From an uncultured Spirochaetota bacterium (GTDB lineage Bacteria > Spirochaetota > Brachyspiria > Brachyspirales > Brachyspiraceae): 64,000 bases of DNA. Below are positions 43,711-50,933 of the stretch, in pieces. A program made the translations under genes and the position numbers. The stretch's first letter is position 1; every line of letters begins with the position of its first letter. The DNA lies in the NCBI GenBank assembly GCA_944390575.1, contig CALXQJ010000003.1, positions 124,001 to 188,000 on the forward strand. Reading direction: 5' to 3'. The notes below the pieces were generated by a model, which did no database searches, was not told where the DNA came from, and saw nothing but the letters and a program-made list of their open reading frames with translations.

Positions 43711-43971
43711 TTATATATATTTATGTTTTTTATTCTTTAATGTATTACTTCTTCTTTTTATATTATTTAAATATTTTGAATGAGTTAGTATATCTGTTGC
43801 TAAATTTGATATTGACTTATTTTTTATTTTTGAAAGTTTTTCTAGCCTTATAATTAATTTTCTATCTAAGTAAATTGGTGTTAAAATATCTTCTTCTTTT
43901 TCTATATAAAACATACCAGAACGAAAATCTTTTATATTTACTGCTTTTGAAAAGTCGTACTCTTTTTTCAT
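43711..43971 (-). CDS. BrnA-like antitoxin
   Basis: An 86-residue basic protein 8 bases downstream of a BrnT toxin gene. It contains a ribbon-helix-helix-like segment TPIYLDRKLIIRLEKLSKIK followed by a helix KSISNLATDIL, fitting the DNA-binding C-terminal part of BrnA antitoxins, which neutralise BrnT and repress the operon. The usual BrnA sequence is weakly conserved, so position beside brnT carries much of the weight. Confidence 0.72.
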   Translation of the reverse strand: MKKEYDFSKAVNIKDFRSGMFYIEKEEDILTPIYLDRKLIIRLEKLSKIKNKSISNLATDILTHSKYLNNIKRRSNTLKNKKHKYI

Positions 43972-43979
43972 ATTATTTT

Positions 43980-44282
43980 TTAATTCCTATCTTTATTAAA
44001 ATTAATATAGTCTCTCTTTTCTTTACTTGTAGCATATCTTGCTGATATTATTCTTATTATTTCTACACCTTCTCTACTTCTATCTGTATGTACTACAACT
44101 ACTATAGTTTGATTTCCTATACTACCTAATGTTATAAAACGCTCTTCTGTATATGATAAATCATCATCCTTCATAATTAATGCATTATTATCTGTAAAAA
44201 CGTGTAATGCTTTTTCAAATGAAATTTTATGCTTCTTTATATTTAATAAATTCTTTTTTTCATCCCATTCGAATTTTACCAT
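43980..44282 (-). CDS. brnT: BrnT family toxin (ribonuclease)
   Basis: A 100-residue protein with the BrnT pattern: KFEWDEKKNLLNIKKHKISF, then EKALHVFTDNNALIMKD, RFITLGSIGNQTIVVVVHTD and IEIIRIISARYATSKEKRDY-like ending (VEIIRIISARYATSKEKRDY). BrnT is a RelE-fold mRNA ribonuclease that arrests growth when free. Toxin precedes antitoxin, the usual order for brnTA. It opens the accessory island and is divergent from the type IIG restriction gene. Confidence 0.9.
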   Translation of the reverse strand: MVKFEWDEKKNLLNIKKHKISFEKALHVFTDNNALIMKDDDLSYTEERFITLGSIGNQTIVVVVHTDRSREGVEIIRIISARYATSKEKRDYINFNKDRN

Positions 44283-44414: not shown

Positions 44415-47400
44415 ATGTCTGATAATAAAATTAAAGCTTATGAAACTATTAAAAATCTTGTATACAAATTTGAAAGTAATTATAGTCAGTATAATGATAT
44501 TAATTATAATGAAACTATGACTAGACGTGATTTTATCGACCCTTTCTTTGAAGCTCTTGGGTGGGATGTCGCTAATAAACAGGGGTTTTCTGAAACCTAT
44601 CGTGATGTTGTACACGAAGATAAGCTAAAAATTCGTGAGTCTAAAAATAATGTGCTTCGTTGTAAAGCTCCTGATTATGCTTTTCGTATTGGCGGAAATC
44701 GTGTATTCTTCGTTGAGGCTAAAAAACCTTTTGTTAAGCTTGATAATAATCCTGAAACTGCTTTTCAACTTAGACGTTATGGGTATAGTGCTAGTCTTGG
44801 GGTTAGTATTCTTACTGATTTTGAAGAAATTGCTATTTATGATTGTAGTGTTAAGCCTAATATTAATGATAAAAGCTCGGTTGCCAGAATTAAATACTAT
44901 AACTACAAAGAATATCTTAATGAAGATGTATTCAACTTTATATATGACACATTTGCGAGAGAAAATATTCCTCGTGGCTCTTTGGAAAAATATATTGCTG
45001 ATAGCAAAATAAAAAAAGGGACTAGCTCTGTTGATAGCGACTTTTTAAACTCGCTTGATAATTTACGTACTAAACTTGCTGATAATATTAATAAACTTAA
45101 TAAAAATCTTTCTGTACGCGATCTTAACTTTGCTGTGCAGGCTATTATTGATAGAATTATATTCTTACGGGTTGCTGAAGATAGAAATGTTGAAGAATAT
45201 GGGAGACTTAGGGTTATTTGTCAAAACAAAAGTGACTCGTTTTATCTTAAACTTATTGATGTTTTTAGAGATGCTGATAGTAAGTATAATTCGGGGCTTT
45301 TTCATCTTGAGAGTGATTTTATTACTACTAATCTTCAAATAGATAATAAGGTAATTAAAGAGATTATTGAAGAGCTTTATTATCCTATTAGTCCTTATGA
45401 GTTTTCTGTTATCTCTGTTGAGATTATTGGGAATGCTTATGAACAGTTCTTGGGGAAAACTATTTCTATTAATAATCGTAATAAGGCGGTGATTGATCTT
45501 AAACCTGAAGTGCGTAAGGCGGGAGGAGTATATTATACGCCTGAGTATATTGTTGATTATATTGTGCGTAATAGTGTTGGAGTTATGATTGAGGGGAAGA
45601 GTCCTGAGGAAATTGCCAAAATCAAGATTATTGATCCTGCTTGTGGAAGTGGTAGCTTCTTACTTGGTGTTTATCAATATTTACTTGATTATCATCTTGA
45701 TTATTATAAGAATAAAAAACAAAATACAAAGTTTCGTGGCGTGAAAGATGATGTTTTGAATGAGGGGGGCGATGGTCTTAGTCTTTGGCTTAAAAAGCGT
45801 ATACTTGTTAATAATATCTTTGGGGTGGATATTGATGCTAATGCTGTTGAGGTTAGCAAGTTGTCTTTGCTTTTAAAATGTTTGGAGGGGGAAACTAAGG
45901 CTTCGCTTATTAATAATGCGAGTTTGTTTAATGAGCGGGCTTTGCCTTCTTTGGAGGATAATATTAAGTGTGGGAATAGTTTGATTGGGAGTGATTTTTA
46001 CAAGAATGAAGAAATGCTTTTGCTTGATGAGGATATGCAATACAAGATTAACTGTTTTGACTTTGAGGATGAGTTTAAAGAAGTATTTAAAAATGGTTCT
46101 AATGGTTTTGATATAGTTGTTGGAAATCCTCCTTATGTACAGTTGCAAGGGATGGAAAAAGAATTTAAAACTGGGTATCAATCTGGAAATTATAAGACTT
46201 ATCATTCTATGGGCGATATTTATCAGCTTTTCTTTGAGAAAGCACTTAATATTATTAATGATAATGGGGTTGTTGGTTTTATTGTTTCTAATAAGTGGAT
46301 GAGGGCTGGGTATGGTGAAAAAACGAGAGAGTATTTTTATTATAATGCTAATAATGTGAAAGTTGTCGACTTGGGGGCTGGACGGTTTAAAGGGGCTACT
46401 GTTGATACTAATATTATTTTTTATGGTAAGAATAATAAAAAAGAAATTGACGAGAAGAGAGTATTTCTTGCTGATAAATTTTATGATGATTTAGAAAAAC
46501 TATCTTCATTAACTGAATTAAAAAATAACATAGTAGCTCATAAAAATAAAGAATGGATTATTACTAATAATGAAGAAAACTCTATATTTGAAAAAATTAA
46601 ACAACATAAACCTTTGAAAGATTGGGATATTACAATAAACTATGGTATAAAGACAGGATTTAATGAGGCTTTTATTATTGATGAAGAGACTAAGAATAAA
46701 CTTATTGAAGAAGACAGAAAAAGTGAAGAAATTATAAAACCTTTACTTCGTGGACGTGATATTAAAAGATATTCTTATAACTTTGCTAATCTTTACTTAA
46801 TTAATACACATAACGGTATAAAAGAAAAAGGTATACCTCCTATTGATATTAAAAACTACCCTGCTATAAAAAAACATTTAGACAAATATTATAAACAATT
46901 AGAAAAAAGACAAGATAAAGGTATTACTCCTTATAATTTGAGAAACTGTGCTTATTTAGAAGATTTTGATAAAGATAAAATTGTGTGGACACCTGTTAAT
47001 GGAATTTATTATTTTTCATTTATAGATAAAGGGTATTATTTTAATAATTCTCTTTTTATGATTACTGATAATAATAATGATACTAACAAATTAAAATATC
47101 TATTAGCAGTATTAAATACTGTTACATTTAAATTAGGAAATTTAATTACTCCTTTAACAAATGTAGGACAATATGCATACGGCTCTAAAGAATTTATGCA
47201 AAATATACCTATACCAGAAACTGACGAAGAAACTAAAAGAAAAATAGTTACTCTTGTGGATACTATTATTGAGGAAAATAAAAAGATTAAAAACGAGAAA
47301 AATCCTAACTCTATTAAAATTATTAATACTAAAATTAAAGCTATTGATAAAAATATCGATACTATAGTTTATTCTTTGTATAAACTTAGTGACGACGAGG

Positions 47401-47423
47401 TTAAAATCATTGAAAACTCGTAA
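44415..47423 (+). CDS. Type IIG restriction-modification enzyme (Eco57I-like)
   Basis: A 1002-residue single-chain nuclease-methyltransferase. N-terminal HsdR-like nuclease: PDYAFRIGG with Asp87 and VEAKKP with Glu101 and Lys103. Methylase motifs: DPACGSGSFLLG at 407 (motif I) and GNPPYVQ at 571-574 (N6-adenine, motif IV). The C-terminal part from about 690 should be the target-recognition domain, with a helical end (LVDTIIEENKKIKNEK). Codon use changes sharply: about 44415-46450 uses many CGT, CTT and GGG codons, about 46470-47230 uses AGA, TTA and ATA like the chromosome, then it shifts back. This suggests domain exchange. Confidence 0.92.
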   Translation: MSDNKIKAYETIKNLVYKFESNYSQYNDINYNETMTRRDFIDPFFEALGWDVANKQGFSETYRDVVHEDKLKIRESKNNVLRCKAPDYAFRIGGNRVFFVEAKKPFVKLDNNPETAFQLRRYGYSASLGVSILTDFEEIAIYDCSVKPNINDKSSVARIKYYNYKEYLNEDVFNFIYDTFARENIPRGSLEKYIADSKIKKGTSSVDSDFLNSLDNLRTKLADNINKLNKNLSVRDLNFAVQAIIDRIIFLRVAEDRNVEEYGRLRVICQNKSDSFYLKLIDVFRDADSKYNSGLFHLESDFITTNLQIDNKVIKEIIEELYYPISPYEFSVISVEIIGNAYEQFLGKTISINNRNKAVIDLKPEVRKAGGVYYTPEYIVDYIVRNSVGVMIEGKSPEEIAKIKIIDPACGSGSFLLGVYQYLLDYHLDYYKNKKQNTKFRGVKDDVLNEGGDGLSLWLKKRILVNNIFGVDIDANAVEVSKLSLLLKCLEGETKASLINNASLFNERALPSLEDNIKCGNSLIGSDFYKNEEMLLLDEDMQYKINCFDFEDEFKEVFKNGSNGFDIVVGNPPYVQLQGMEKEFKTGYQSGNYKTYHSMGDIYQLFFEKALNIINDNGVVGFIVSNKWMRAGYGEKTREYFYYNANNVKVVDLGAGRFKGATVDTNIIFYGKNNKKEIDEKRVFLADKFYDDLEKLSSLTELKNNIVAHKNKEWIITNNEENSIFEKIKQHKPLKDWDITINYGIKTGFNEAFIIDEETKNKLIEEDRKSEEIIKPLLRGRDIKRYSYNFANLYLINTHNGIKEKGIPPIDIKNYPAIKKHLDKYYKQLEKRQDKGITPYNLRNCAYLEDFDKDKIVWTPVNGIYYFSFIDKGYYFNNSLFMITDNNNDTNKLKYLLAVLNTVTFKLGNLITPLTNVGQYAYGSKEFMQNIPIPETDEETKRKIVTLVDTIIEENKKIKNEKNPNSIKIINTKIKAIDKNIDTIVYSLYKLSDDEVKIIENS

Positions 47424-47454
47424 CGCTAAAAACATAAACTTTATGGCTTTTTTG

Positions 47455-47517
47455 TTTCTTTTTTATCCAATAAAAAAGAAATAGTTTTTTGGTTCTTTTT
47501 TTCTATAAAAAAAGAAC
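47455..47517. repeat. Two tandem hairpin-forming inverted repeats
   Basis: First repeat: TTTCTTTTTT (47455-47464) and AAAAAAGAAA (47472-47481). Second: GTTCTTTTTTT (47492-47502) and AAAAAAAGAAC (47507-47517) with a 4-base loop. Both arms are perfect and the two units resemble each other. They fill the gap between the type IIG gene and tcmP; at least one could terminate transcription. Confidence 0.8.
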
Positions 47518-47587
47518 AATATATACTATAAGTAGTTTATTTTATTATCTTTATGTATTATAATGTTAAAAAAATTTGGAGTCTATA

Positions 47588-48691
47588 ATGTCAAAAGATA
47601 TTAATCAAACATCATTTGCAGAAAGTACAAAATTAAAATTAGAAATACTATCTGATTTTTTTAAAGAGTGGTTTCCTGTTTTTATAAAAACACCTCAAAT
47701 AAATAAATTATATGTTTTTGACCTTTTTGCTGGAAGTGGTACTGATATTGACGGGACATATGGATCGCCATTAATATTATTAAGCGAAGCTAAAAAATTT
47801 TGTAAAAATAACTATAAAAATATAACATTTATTTTTAATGATTCTGAAAAAGATAAATCTGACAAACTTAATAAAAAAATTAATAAATATATTAAAGAAT
47901 GCAGTTCAAATTTTTGTAAAAAACATTGTATTTATAAATATAATGTTGAAAATCAACTTTTTCAAGAATATTTTTTTAATAATGAAATACAACATATTCT
48001 TCAAAATAATGAAATAGCAAAATTTTTATTTTTGGATCAATATGGAATCAAAGAAATAAATAAAGAAGTCTTTAATACATTGATTAACAGTCCTAAAACA
48101 GATTTTATATTTTTTATATCTTCTTCCATAGTTAAAAGATTTAAAGATATTCCAGAAATAAAACAATATATAGACATTAATAATATAAATGTTGTAGAAA
48201 ATGGTTACGATAAAAGTCATTTAGTTGTATTAGAATATTATAAAAGTTTAATTCCTAAAGATATGGAGTATTATATTCATGGATTTTCAATAAAAAGAGG
48301 AGCTAATTATTATGGATTAATTTTTGGTTCTTCACATACTTTAGGAATGGAAAAATTTCTAAATGTTTGCTGGAAACATGATCAAAATTCGGGTGAATCT
48401 AACCATAATATTAATAATGACGATACTTTTTTTGGAATAAAATCAAATAATAAAAAAACTATGATTGAAAATAATATTCGTAGTTTAATTTTAAATAAGC
48501 AAATAACTACTAATATTGATGGTTTTAAATATGCTATGAAAAATGGATGTAAACCTGAATTATTTAAAAAAGTTATTAAAGAAATGGAAAAAGATAAAAA
48601 AGTAGAATTAAAATCTTGTAATAATCTAAAAGTGAGTTATGCTTCTACTAATATACACAAAGTAGATAAATATACTATAGAGGTTTTATAA
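47588..48691 (+). CDS. tcmP: Three-Cys-motif partner protein TcmP
   Basis: A 367-residue protein of the TcmP family, which occurs beside Gp37/Gp68-like three-Cys proteins. It shows a Rossmann-type methyltransferase start: LKLEILSDFFKEWFPVFI, then VFDLFAGSGTDIDGTYGSPL, a FIFNDSEKDK strand, and FLFLDQYGIKEINKEVF. Start is ATG 47588, just after GGAG; the frame is open four codons further upstream only by chance. The three-Cys protein gene follows after 5 bases. Members are common in defence islands and phages, but the biochemical role is not established, to my knowledge. Confidence 0.85.
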   Translation: MSKDINQTSFAESTKLKLEILSDFFKEWFPVFIKTPQINKLYVFDLFAGSGTDIDGTYGSPLILLSEAKKFCKNNYKNITFIFNDSEKDKSDKLNKKINKYIKECSSNFCKKHCIYKYNVENQLFQEYFFNNEIQHILQNNEIAKFLFLDQYGIKEINKEVFNTLINSPKTDFIFFISSSIVKRFKDIPEIKQYIDINNINVVENGYDKSHLVVLEYYKSLIPKDMEYYIHGFSIKRGANYYGLIFGSSHTLGMEKFLNVCWKHDQNSGESNHNINNDDTFFGIKSNNKKTMIENNIRSLILNKQITTNIDGFKYAMKNGCKPELFKKVIKEMEKDKKVELKSCNNLKVSYASTNIHKVDKYTIEVL

Positions 48692-48696
48692 TTTTA

Positions 48697-49413
48697 ATGA
48701 GTTCAAAAATAGAATGGACTGAAGATACTTGGAATCCTGTTACTGGATGTACAAAAATAAGCGAAGGTTGTTTGAATTGTTATGCTGAAAAAATGGCTTA
48801 TAGACTTTATAATATGGGCGTTGAAAATTACAGAAATAAATTTGATATAACAATTCACGAACATATGCTTAATTATCCTAAAACTATAAAAAAATCTAAA
48901 GTAATTTTTGTAAATTCTATGAGTGATTTATTTCACGAAGATATACCAATAGACTTTATAAAAAAAGTATTTACTGTTATGAATAATTGCCCTCAACACA
49001 TTTTTCAAATTCTAACTAAACGCTCAGAAAACATGCTCAAAGTTATAGATGAAGTGAAATTAACTAAAAATATATGGTTGGGTGTTACGATAGAAAATAA
49101 TAGAGTGTTGTATAGAATGAATGACCTATTAAAAGTAAATGCAAATATTAGATTTATATCTTTTGAACCTCTATTGGAAAATATAAATAATATAGACTTA
49201 ACAGGTATAGACTGGGCTATTGTAGGTGGTGAGTCAGGACATAACTCAAGACCTATTGAAGAAGATTGGATACTAAATATAAAAGAAGCCTGTAAAAAAT
49301 CTAAAACTGCTTTCTTCTTTAAACAATGGGGTGGTGTAAATAAAAAGAAAAATGGTAGAATACTGCAAGGTAGAACTTGGAACGCTGTACCCAAATATGA
49401 TTTTAAATGCTAA
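48697..49413 (+). CDS. Three-Cys-motif protein, phage Gp37/Gp68 family (DUF5131)
   Basis: A 238-residue protein opening with SKIEWTEDTWNPVTGCTKIS and the cysteine set C18-x6-C25-x2-C28 in GCTKISEGCLNCYAEKMAYR, then VIFVNSMSDLFHEDIP, QILTKRSENM, WLGVTIENN, RFISFEPLLE, WAIVGGESG and FFFKQWGG. All are hallmarks of the Gp37/Gp68 (DUF5131) family, which looks like a metal- or Fe-S-binding TIM-barrel related to radical SAM enzymes, though the Cys spacing is not the classical C-x3-C-x2-C. Co-transcribed with tcmP. Possible nucleic-acid or nucleotide modification; function unproven. Confidence 0.87.
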   Translation: MSSKIEWTEDTWNPVTGCTKISEGCLNCYAEKMAYRLYNMGVENYRNKFDITIHEHMLNYPKTIKKSKVIFVNSMSDLFHEDIPIDFIKKVFTVMNNCPQHIFQILTKRSENMLKVIDEVKLTKNIWLGVTIENNRVLYRMNDLLKVNANIRFISFEPLLENINNIDLTGIDWAIVGGESGHNSRPIEEDWILNIKEACKKSKTAFFFKQWGGVNKKKNGRILQGRTWNAVPKYDFKC

Positions 49414-49569: not shown

Positions 49570-49591
49570 TTTAAAAACTTTGGAGGATTAT

Positions 49592-49813
49592 ATGGTTTTT
49601 AATGTCATCATTCAAAAAGATAAAAACGGATACTTCGCTCAAGTACCTGAACTCAAAGGTTGTTTCTCGCAGGGTGACTCATTAGAGGAAGTAGATAAAA
49701 ATATTAAAGAAGCTATTGAACTATATCTCGAAACTATGGACAAAGAGGAAATTCAAGAACTACATCAAAAAAACTCATTTATTAGACCTTTAGAGGTGCT
49801 AATTGAAAAATAA
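49592..49813 (+). CDS. hicB: HicB-family antitoxin
   Basis: A 73-residue protein with the HicB partial RNase H fold: MVFNVIIQKDKNGYFAQVPE, LKGCFSQGDSLEEVDKNIKE and AIELYLETM. HicB binds and blocks HicA and often represses the operon. Start is ATG 49592 with GGAGG 5 bases before; the frame opens four codons earlier at a TTG that is less likely. It precedes and overlaps hicA by 11 bases, the order hicB-hicA. There is no long C-terminal DNA-binding helix pair, so repression would depend on a minimal domain. Confidence 0.9.
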   Translation: MVFNVIIQKDKNGYFAQVPELKGCFSQGDSLEEVDKNIKEAIELYLETMDKEEIQELHQKNSFIRPLEVLIEK

Positions 49814-50282: not shown

Positions 50283-50933
50283 ATGAAAAAATACTACATC
50301 AGAAACGCTATCTTCGACTTCGATGGCACTATCGTCGACTCTGAAACTATATACACTAAAGCTCTATACAAAACTACTAAACAGATGAACGCTCTCACTG
50401 ATATTGACTTCCATAAGCTCGCTGGATATCAGACAAAAGATATGTATAACATCATTGCTAAAACCCACAAAATACCTGAGGATTTCTTCTCTAATACTCA
50501 ACTAGTCTTTGATAGTATGCTTGAAACTGAACTTAAACTATTTGATGGGGTAATTGAGACTATACAAAAATTTAATAATATTGTTATAGCTTCTAATAGT
50601 AAGATAGACTATGTTCAAAAAATTGCTAAACAACAAAATATTCATCAATATATAAAGAATTATTCTTGCCATAATGATAAGCTAAAAGCTAAACCAGAAC
50701 CTGATTTGTTCTTAGATGCATTTAAAAATATACAGGATATAGATAGTCAAACTACATTAGAAAATACTATAATCTTTGAAGACTCTATTGCTGGTGTACA
50801 GGCTGCTAAAAAAACTGGTATAAAGATTGTTGCTATTACTAATAGTTATGATAAAAATATACTGCTTGAAAATGGGGCTGATATTGTTGTTGACAAAATT
50901 GATAAAGTATTTGAGTATATTGATATAATCTAA
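50283..50933 (+). CDS. HAD-IA family phosphatase / beta-phosphoglucomutase-like
   Basis: A 216-residue HAD hydrolase: motif I FDFDGTIVDSE (nucleophile and acid/base Asp), a helical cap, motif II NIVIASNSKIDYV, a Lys in KAKPEPDLF and motif IV IIFEDSIAGVQAAKKTGI. This pattern fits the phosphoglycolate phosphatase/beta-phosphoglucomutase group; the substrate is not determinable. The first 40 codons are noticeably richer in C (ATC, TTC, GAC) than the rest, so part of the gene may share the foreign history of the neighbouring island. Confidence 0.87.
   Translation: MKKYYIRNAIFDFDGTIVDSETIYTKALYKTTKQMNALTDIDFHKLAGYQTKDMYNIIAKTHKIPEDFFSNTQLVFDSMLETELKLFDGVIETIQKFNNIVIASNSKIDYVQKIAKQQNIHQYIKNYSCHNDKLKAKPEPDLFLDAFKNIQDIDSQTTLENTIIFEDSIAGVQAAKKTGIKIVAITNSYDKNILLENGADIVVDKIDKVFEYIDII

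Follow-up and report, generated by a model that had tools for sequence, protein, structure and literature searches.

Type IIG and IIL restriction enzymes such as MmeI and BpuSI combine a nuclease, an N6-adenine methylase and one C-terminal target-recognition domain (TRD) in a single chain. The same holds for the gene studied here, which lies in a stretch of 64,000 nucleotides (the window) from an uncultured bacterium of the Brachyspiraceae. Compared with these enzymes, the Brachyspira gene adds a seam in codon usage at the TRD and its relatives add headless copies of the TRD downstream; we found neither of the two described for type IIG or IIL enzymes in the open-access literature. In the way they work, although not by membership, the Brachyspira arrays resemble the orphan cassettes of Rhs/CDI loci, where headless C-terminal modules stand behind a full-length gene, each of them opening with part of that gene and carrying its own cargo after it. 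The Rhs/CDI modules consist of toxin tips with immunity genes, whereas the Brachyspira arrays hold a DNA-reading domain and defence-type genes.

In Helicobacter pylori, the TRDs of type I and type IIG specificity genes are exchanged by recombination at flanking repeats (PMC3077401). In this domain movement a separate S subunit carries the TRDs, which change place within genes, whereas the Brachyspira TRD lies inside a fused enzyme and its spare copies all point the same way and are separated by other genes. The pneumococcal tvr locus (SpnIV) holds specificity cassettes by the active gene, together with direct repeats and non-restriction genes (PMC6265443). Although it is like the Brachyspira loci in having cassettes beside the active gene and other genes in the locus, it is built on a type I hsdS and has a dedicated recombinase (PMC6265443), and none was found near the Brachyspira arrays. 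In duplicated inverting hsdS loci, too, silent copies of the specificity gene lie downstream of the active one (PMC7394358), but these are type I systems with inverted repeats, in contrast to the type IIG genes and direct-orientation copies of Brachyspira. In Campylobacter jejuni, a phase-variable type IIG enzyme is described that is switched on and off (PMC4889913). For Brachyspira, we found neither such a locus nor restriction-modification together with phase variation described in the open-access literature, nor any mention of such a locus in the searched passages of Brachyspira genome papers.

A type IIG gene with a codon switch at its recognition domain

The gene (44415..47423, plus strand) encodes a protein of 1002 amino acids. 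An earlier note on this DNA had taken it for a type IIG gene, and both the Pfam domains of the product (Eco57I, HSDR_N and TaqI_C, the latter at residues 775-902) and the PADLOC REase_MTase_IIG model, which covers residues 5-998 (E 9e-200), agree. Only one copy is present in the window genome (2.0 Mb, 19 contigs), where a search for a second TRD copy or a headless cassette found none. Residues 1-560 (44415..46094), kept in the genus and beyond, form a constant chassis that comprises a PD-(D/E)XK nuclease (D87, E101, K103) and the beginning of the methylase, where motif I is found at D407-PACGSG; methylase motif IV, N571-PPY, follows at 46125..46136. Across 37 homologues, D87, E101, D407, ACGSG and the N571, P572 and P573 of motif IV are invariant and K103 is found in more than 90%, so that an active enzyme is to be expected. 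Nuclease and methylase thus lie in one chain with their catalytic motifs intact, and a C-terminal TRD after the methylase core is seen from the TaqI_C match, the AF2 model and Foldseek, which returned CamA, M.BseCI, BrxX/PglX, BpuSI and MmeI. A conservation scan of 37 sequences found a block of low protein conservation at residues 577-980 (46143..47354), with 22% identity inside and 52% outside. The gene ends in a constant C-terminal arm, a helix pair (residues 951-1002 and the stop codon, 47265..47423) delimited by protein identity and codon z, with 50-62% amino acid identity in most alleles.

The same note had described a style rich in CGT in the early part of the gene, a block rich in TTA and ATA over the target-recognition region, and a return to the first style over the final 50 or so codons. 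Indeed, the counts for 44415-46440 are CGT 14/29, TTA 6/54 and ATA 6/55, and those for 46440-47260 are CGT 2/8, TTA 14/24 and ATA 12/30. A 60-codon z-score, conditional on the amino acid, lies mostly between -1.5 and -6 before 46440 (-3 to -6.5 per block for residues 1-560) and around 0 (-1 to +1) over 46395-47250, with a slight dip beyond; the last 58 or so codons (945-1002) are back in the first style, with z of -4 to -5. In a likelihood segment search the native-like block was placed at codons 669-944 (46419..47246) with an LLR of 39, the highest LLR in 200 null simulations being 10, and the simulated 95% range was 652-700 for the 5' edge and 914-968 for the 3' edge. A scan of A-ending codons picked out codons 693-944 (z 7.7; 60 permutations of synonymous codons within the gene gave 4.2 at most). 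The switch is sharp in the codon scores, both near 46440 and back near 47250. GC3 alone, which the note had also proposed as a check, was without significance within the gene (5.0 vs 5.1).

In the AF2 model (mean pLDDT 83.6, pTM 0.74), as we read its domains, the methylase sheet ends at around residues 672-688 and the C-terminal helix pair starts from 938. Since the codon block falls between the two, it corresponds to the TRD, where the note had placed it. Strand bias was ruled out as the source of the switch, as the contrast persists under strand-specific backgrounds: residues 1-560 have a z of -13.4 when scored against the plus-strand genes of the window and of -9.6 when scored against its minus-strand genes, compared to -0.2 and -1.1 for the native-like block. 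A strand bias that codon scans need to take into account is nevertheless present, as third positions of window genes differ by strand (A3 0.44 on the plus and 0.31 on the minus strand; T3 0.44 and 0.55), minus-strand genes being richer in T and G.

Reassortment of chassis and recognition domains in Brachyspira

Some match to the gene was found in all 26 genomes of the genus, one genome per species, so that alleles are compared between species. The alleles of L032 and L041 share 97.7% DNA identity over the chassis (residues 1-515) but only 48% over the TRD, with 105 gap codons. The reverse is seen for L042 and L048, with TRDs 98% identical on chassis that are just 76% identical, and for L036 and L045 (TRD 88%, chassis 70%). 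Constant parts with unrelated TRDs, and related TRDs on diverged constant parts, are thus found in the Brachyspira gene family, though not for the window allele. Sliding identity falls at residue ~560 and recovers at ~950; alleles diverge over this whole stretch and not, as the note had anticipated, at residues ~685-940 only.

Some recognition domains that are expressed in one genome are silent in another. Six TRDs of expressed genes have counterparts among the silent cassettes of another genome, at 87-95% identity; two of the six, L036 and L045, are related to each other. Two silent TRDs in different genomes (L036:14989-15825 and L038:9089-9925, counted so that the full gene is on the plus strand, for which L036 is reversed) share 99.8% identity across 837 bp, which points to a recent transfer. 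Within the window TRD, residues 681-850 (46455..46964) resemble sequences of five Brachyspira loci, either genes or silent cassettes, at 62-76% amino acid identity, and residues 851-950 (46965..47264) have 72% to one broken silent cassette in L037 and at most 42% to others. On this pattern of matches the TRD behaves as two modules, its halves varying separately. Outside Brachyspira, short pieces that resemble no more than the last 25-30 or so residues of the enzyme were seen beyond the 3' end of the full gene (L058:12370-12957, L070:11969-12040, L077:13642-13707 and L089:12417-12497); these may be scars of similar exchanges.

The alleles of six relatives open with repeats of 5 or 7 bases: ATGGATA(AGCAC)n in L032 (n = 14), L034 (10), L041 (8) and L047 (7), and ATGAA(AGTCAAC)n in L040 (8) and L046 (5). 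Counted from the repeat ATG, three of them (L032, L041 and L046) are in frame and three (L034, L040 and L047) are out of frame, L034 having an in-frame TTG further upstream. In L035 a tract is also present, but different sequence and stops follow it. Judging from tract length and frame, the alleles of these six relatives are probably switched on and off, as is the C. jejuni enzyme (PMC4889913). In contrast, a start repeat tract was looked for in the window allele and was absent.

Headless cassettes and defence-type genes in relatives

In nine loci (L031-L039), several of them on draft contigs where some arrays may be incomplete, headless TRD copies lie behind the full gene and point in its direction; such silent copies are thus a feature of relatives and not of the window genome. 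They begin near methylase motif IV and have constant arms in common with the full gene. Along the silent copies GC3 falls from 0.36 in the 5' arm to 0.09 in the TRD and is back at 0.42 in the 3' arm. The full-length gene of L038 is itself broken, the copy in L039 retains the C-terminal part only, and L047 has a short fragment close to a contig end. The 3' arms fall into eight clusters, most of which are common to several genomes. Their mean identity is 0.726 within and 0.674 between genomes, so that concerted evolution of this arm within genomes is weak at most.

A hairpin repeat with a CCGCAC...GTGCGG stem lies 5' of most headless copies, and further upstream of the L039 fragment. One form of it (up to 3 mismatches) is present in 15 of the 26 genomes. 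Most of its copies cluster at these loci and run in the direction of the gene, and isolated ones occur elsewhere, for example in G006 and G009; at the same threshold there was none in the window genome. A second repeat module is clustered alike, again with some copies elsewhere, and L034 contains tandem units of 70-71 bases. An integron attC site or a REP element was considered from the sequence and set aside, L034 having no Rfam match beyond one chance match; since the stem is nearly invariant, it offers little covariation for testing.

The genes between the cassettes encode GajA and GajB (Gabija), an AbiU-like AIPR protein, KAP NTPases, and RES-domain, Mrr-plus-IrrE and DUF1848 proteins, and several are without a family match. 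For example, a GajA/GajB pair (L032:7435-10273) is located between the full-length enzyme gene and the first headless copy. Where relatives carry such defence-type genes, the window has a pair on the plus strand (47576..49413), namely TcmP (47576-48691; TIGR04474 tcm_partner) and DUF5131 (48697-49413; PF07505). Both are PADLOC candidates (PDC-M30A and PDC-M41B/M30B) and we infer that they are cargo of the same kind. Just past the restriction gene, 47448-47501 contains two TTTTTTGGTTCTTTTTT-like motifs (0.27 expected), and T-rich stretches resembling these also lie behind several cassettes in relatives. Further downstream, a HicB-like antitoxin gene (49580-49813) and an ORF (50283-50933) are off-style (z -5.4 and -7.1; GC3 0.25 and 0.23), which suggests another acquired stretch. 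Upstream of the restriction gene and on the opposite strand, 43711-44282 holds a BrnT-type toxin gene followed by a small ORF.

Probable exchange of recognition domains and alternative readings

These data make it probable that the gene belongs to a type IIG family with a constant chassis and an exchangeable TRD (residues ~690-940), in which the codon break marks the seam and homologous recombination acts at the constant flanks. The TRD of the fused nuclease-methylase would choose the DNA sequence, the rest of the protein, including the C-terminal helices, being the constant chassis, and DNA specificity would change with the TRD. Replacement would proceed through recombination within the constant sequences that flank the TRD, the donor being imported DNA or, in array-bearing relatives, the downstream headless cassettes among the defence-type genes. 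Recombination of the RecA type is the likely agent, because the arms are held in common and, in eight genomes, no match to the serine recombinase family PF00239 was found and matches to the tyrosine recombinase family PF00589 were not close to the arrays; a dedicated recombinase in the locus, as in tvr, was thus absent from these eight. The window copy's own TRD may have arrived by such an exchange. That the chassis avoids A-ending codons is perhaps due to repeated gene conversion confined to the homologous arms, which would fit the GC3 of the silent copies.

It could be argued that the window gene records a single recent swap in the lineage of this strain, in which a foreign gene, newly acquired, had its original TRD exchanged for a local one of host style. 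Indeed, the chassis is strongly off the host codon style and the TRD is not. Yet the same split was found in 17/17 other full-length Brachyspira alleles tested, where it begins at codon 505-580, nearer ~560; the window seam (669) lies about 100 codons further in, which favours a swap. Moreover, in 32 of 33 genes (32 relatives from outside the genus, in many phyla, and the window gene) the chassis had a higher GC3 than the TRD, with z above 3 in 13 and none significantly reversed, regardless of host composition, although these genes share ancestry and are not independent. The split is therefore a lasting property of chassis versus TRD rather than the record of a recent swap, and the chromosome-like look of the TRD is a coincidence of an AT-rich host, given the lower TRD GC3 across the family. 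The chassis itself falls within the Brachyspira clade with a support of 1.0 and is ~60-69% identical in amino acids to other Brachyspira chassis (one window reference gene has 77-79% identity across the genus); plasmid relatives of the gene were all below 60% identity. The synonymous similarity of the window TRD to its nearest TRDs is just modestly above expectation and no excess stands out that could date a recent exchange. The first half of the TRD (67% DNA identity to nearest relatives) and the chassis (68.5%) are about equally diverged. A recent swap is hence improbable, and of the recognition-domain swapping proposed in the note, TRD exchange stands for the gene family but not the codon contrast as its recent trace here. 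A split due to differing selection or mutation on conserved and fast-evolving segments, with exchange unnecessary, is less easily dismissed, as the contrast spans many phyla and the variable segment is also the least conserved. We nevertheless regard it as unlikely, since it leaves unrelated TRDs on near-identical chassis unexplained, and the untranslated headless copies retain the GC3 difference between arms and TRD, which argues against translational selection, even if these copies may be recent.

Whether the downstream copies in relatives form a working reservoir is a closer matter. Several cassettes are frame-broken (in L033, L034, L035, L036 and L037), there is no recombinase nearby and, as the copies all face the same way, a simple crossover between two of them would remove the intervening genes, all of which would fit debris of past insertions. 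We are inclined to doubt this, given that other cassettes are open over ~390-510 codons, that a break outside the copied part is irrelevant for gene conversion, and that silent cassettes closely match the six TRDs expressed elsewhere. Under exchange between a chassis and its TRDs, our tentative proposal, to which we give somewhat less than even weight, is that Brachyspira accretes arrays, each unit of which brings together a hairpin repeat, a headless TRD and at least one defence-type gene, and that recombination at the arms would change specificity together with the adjoining defence genes. By analogy, and just as tentatively, such arrays may be the restriction counterpart of Rhs orphan-cassette loci, with an enzyme switched by its start repeat.

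To conclude, a break in codon style within a restriction gene can flag an exchangeable DNA-reading module. A native-looking TRD is not the same as a locally derived one, because the TRD is AT-rich relative to the chassis in nearly every host examined. At the Brachyspira loci a type IIG enzyme is found together with defence genes and with a reservoir of further specificities. Were the cassettes in use, Brachyspira could alter both its methylation pattern and its phage resistance at one place.
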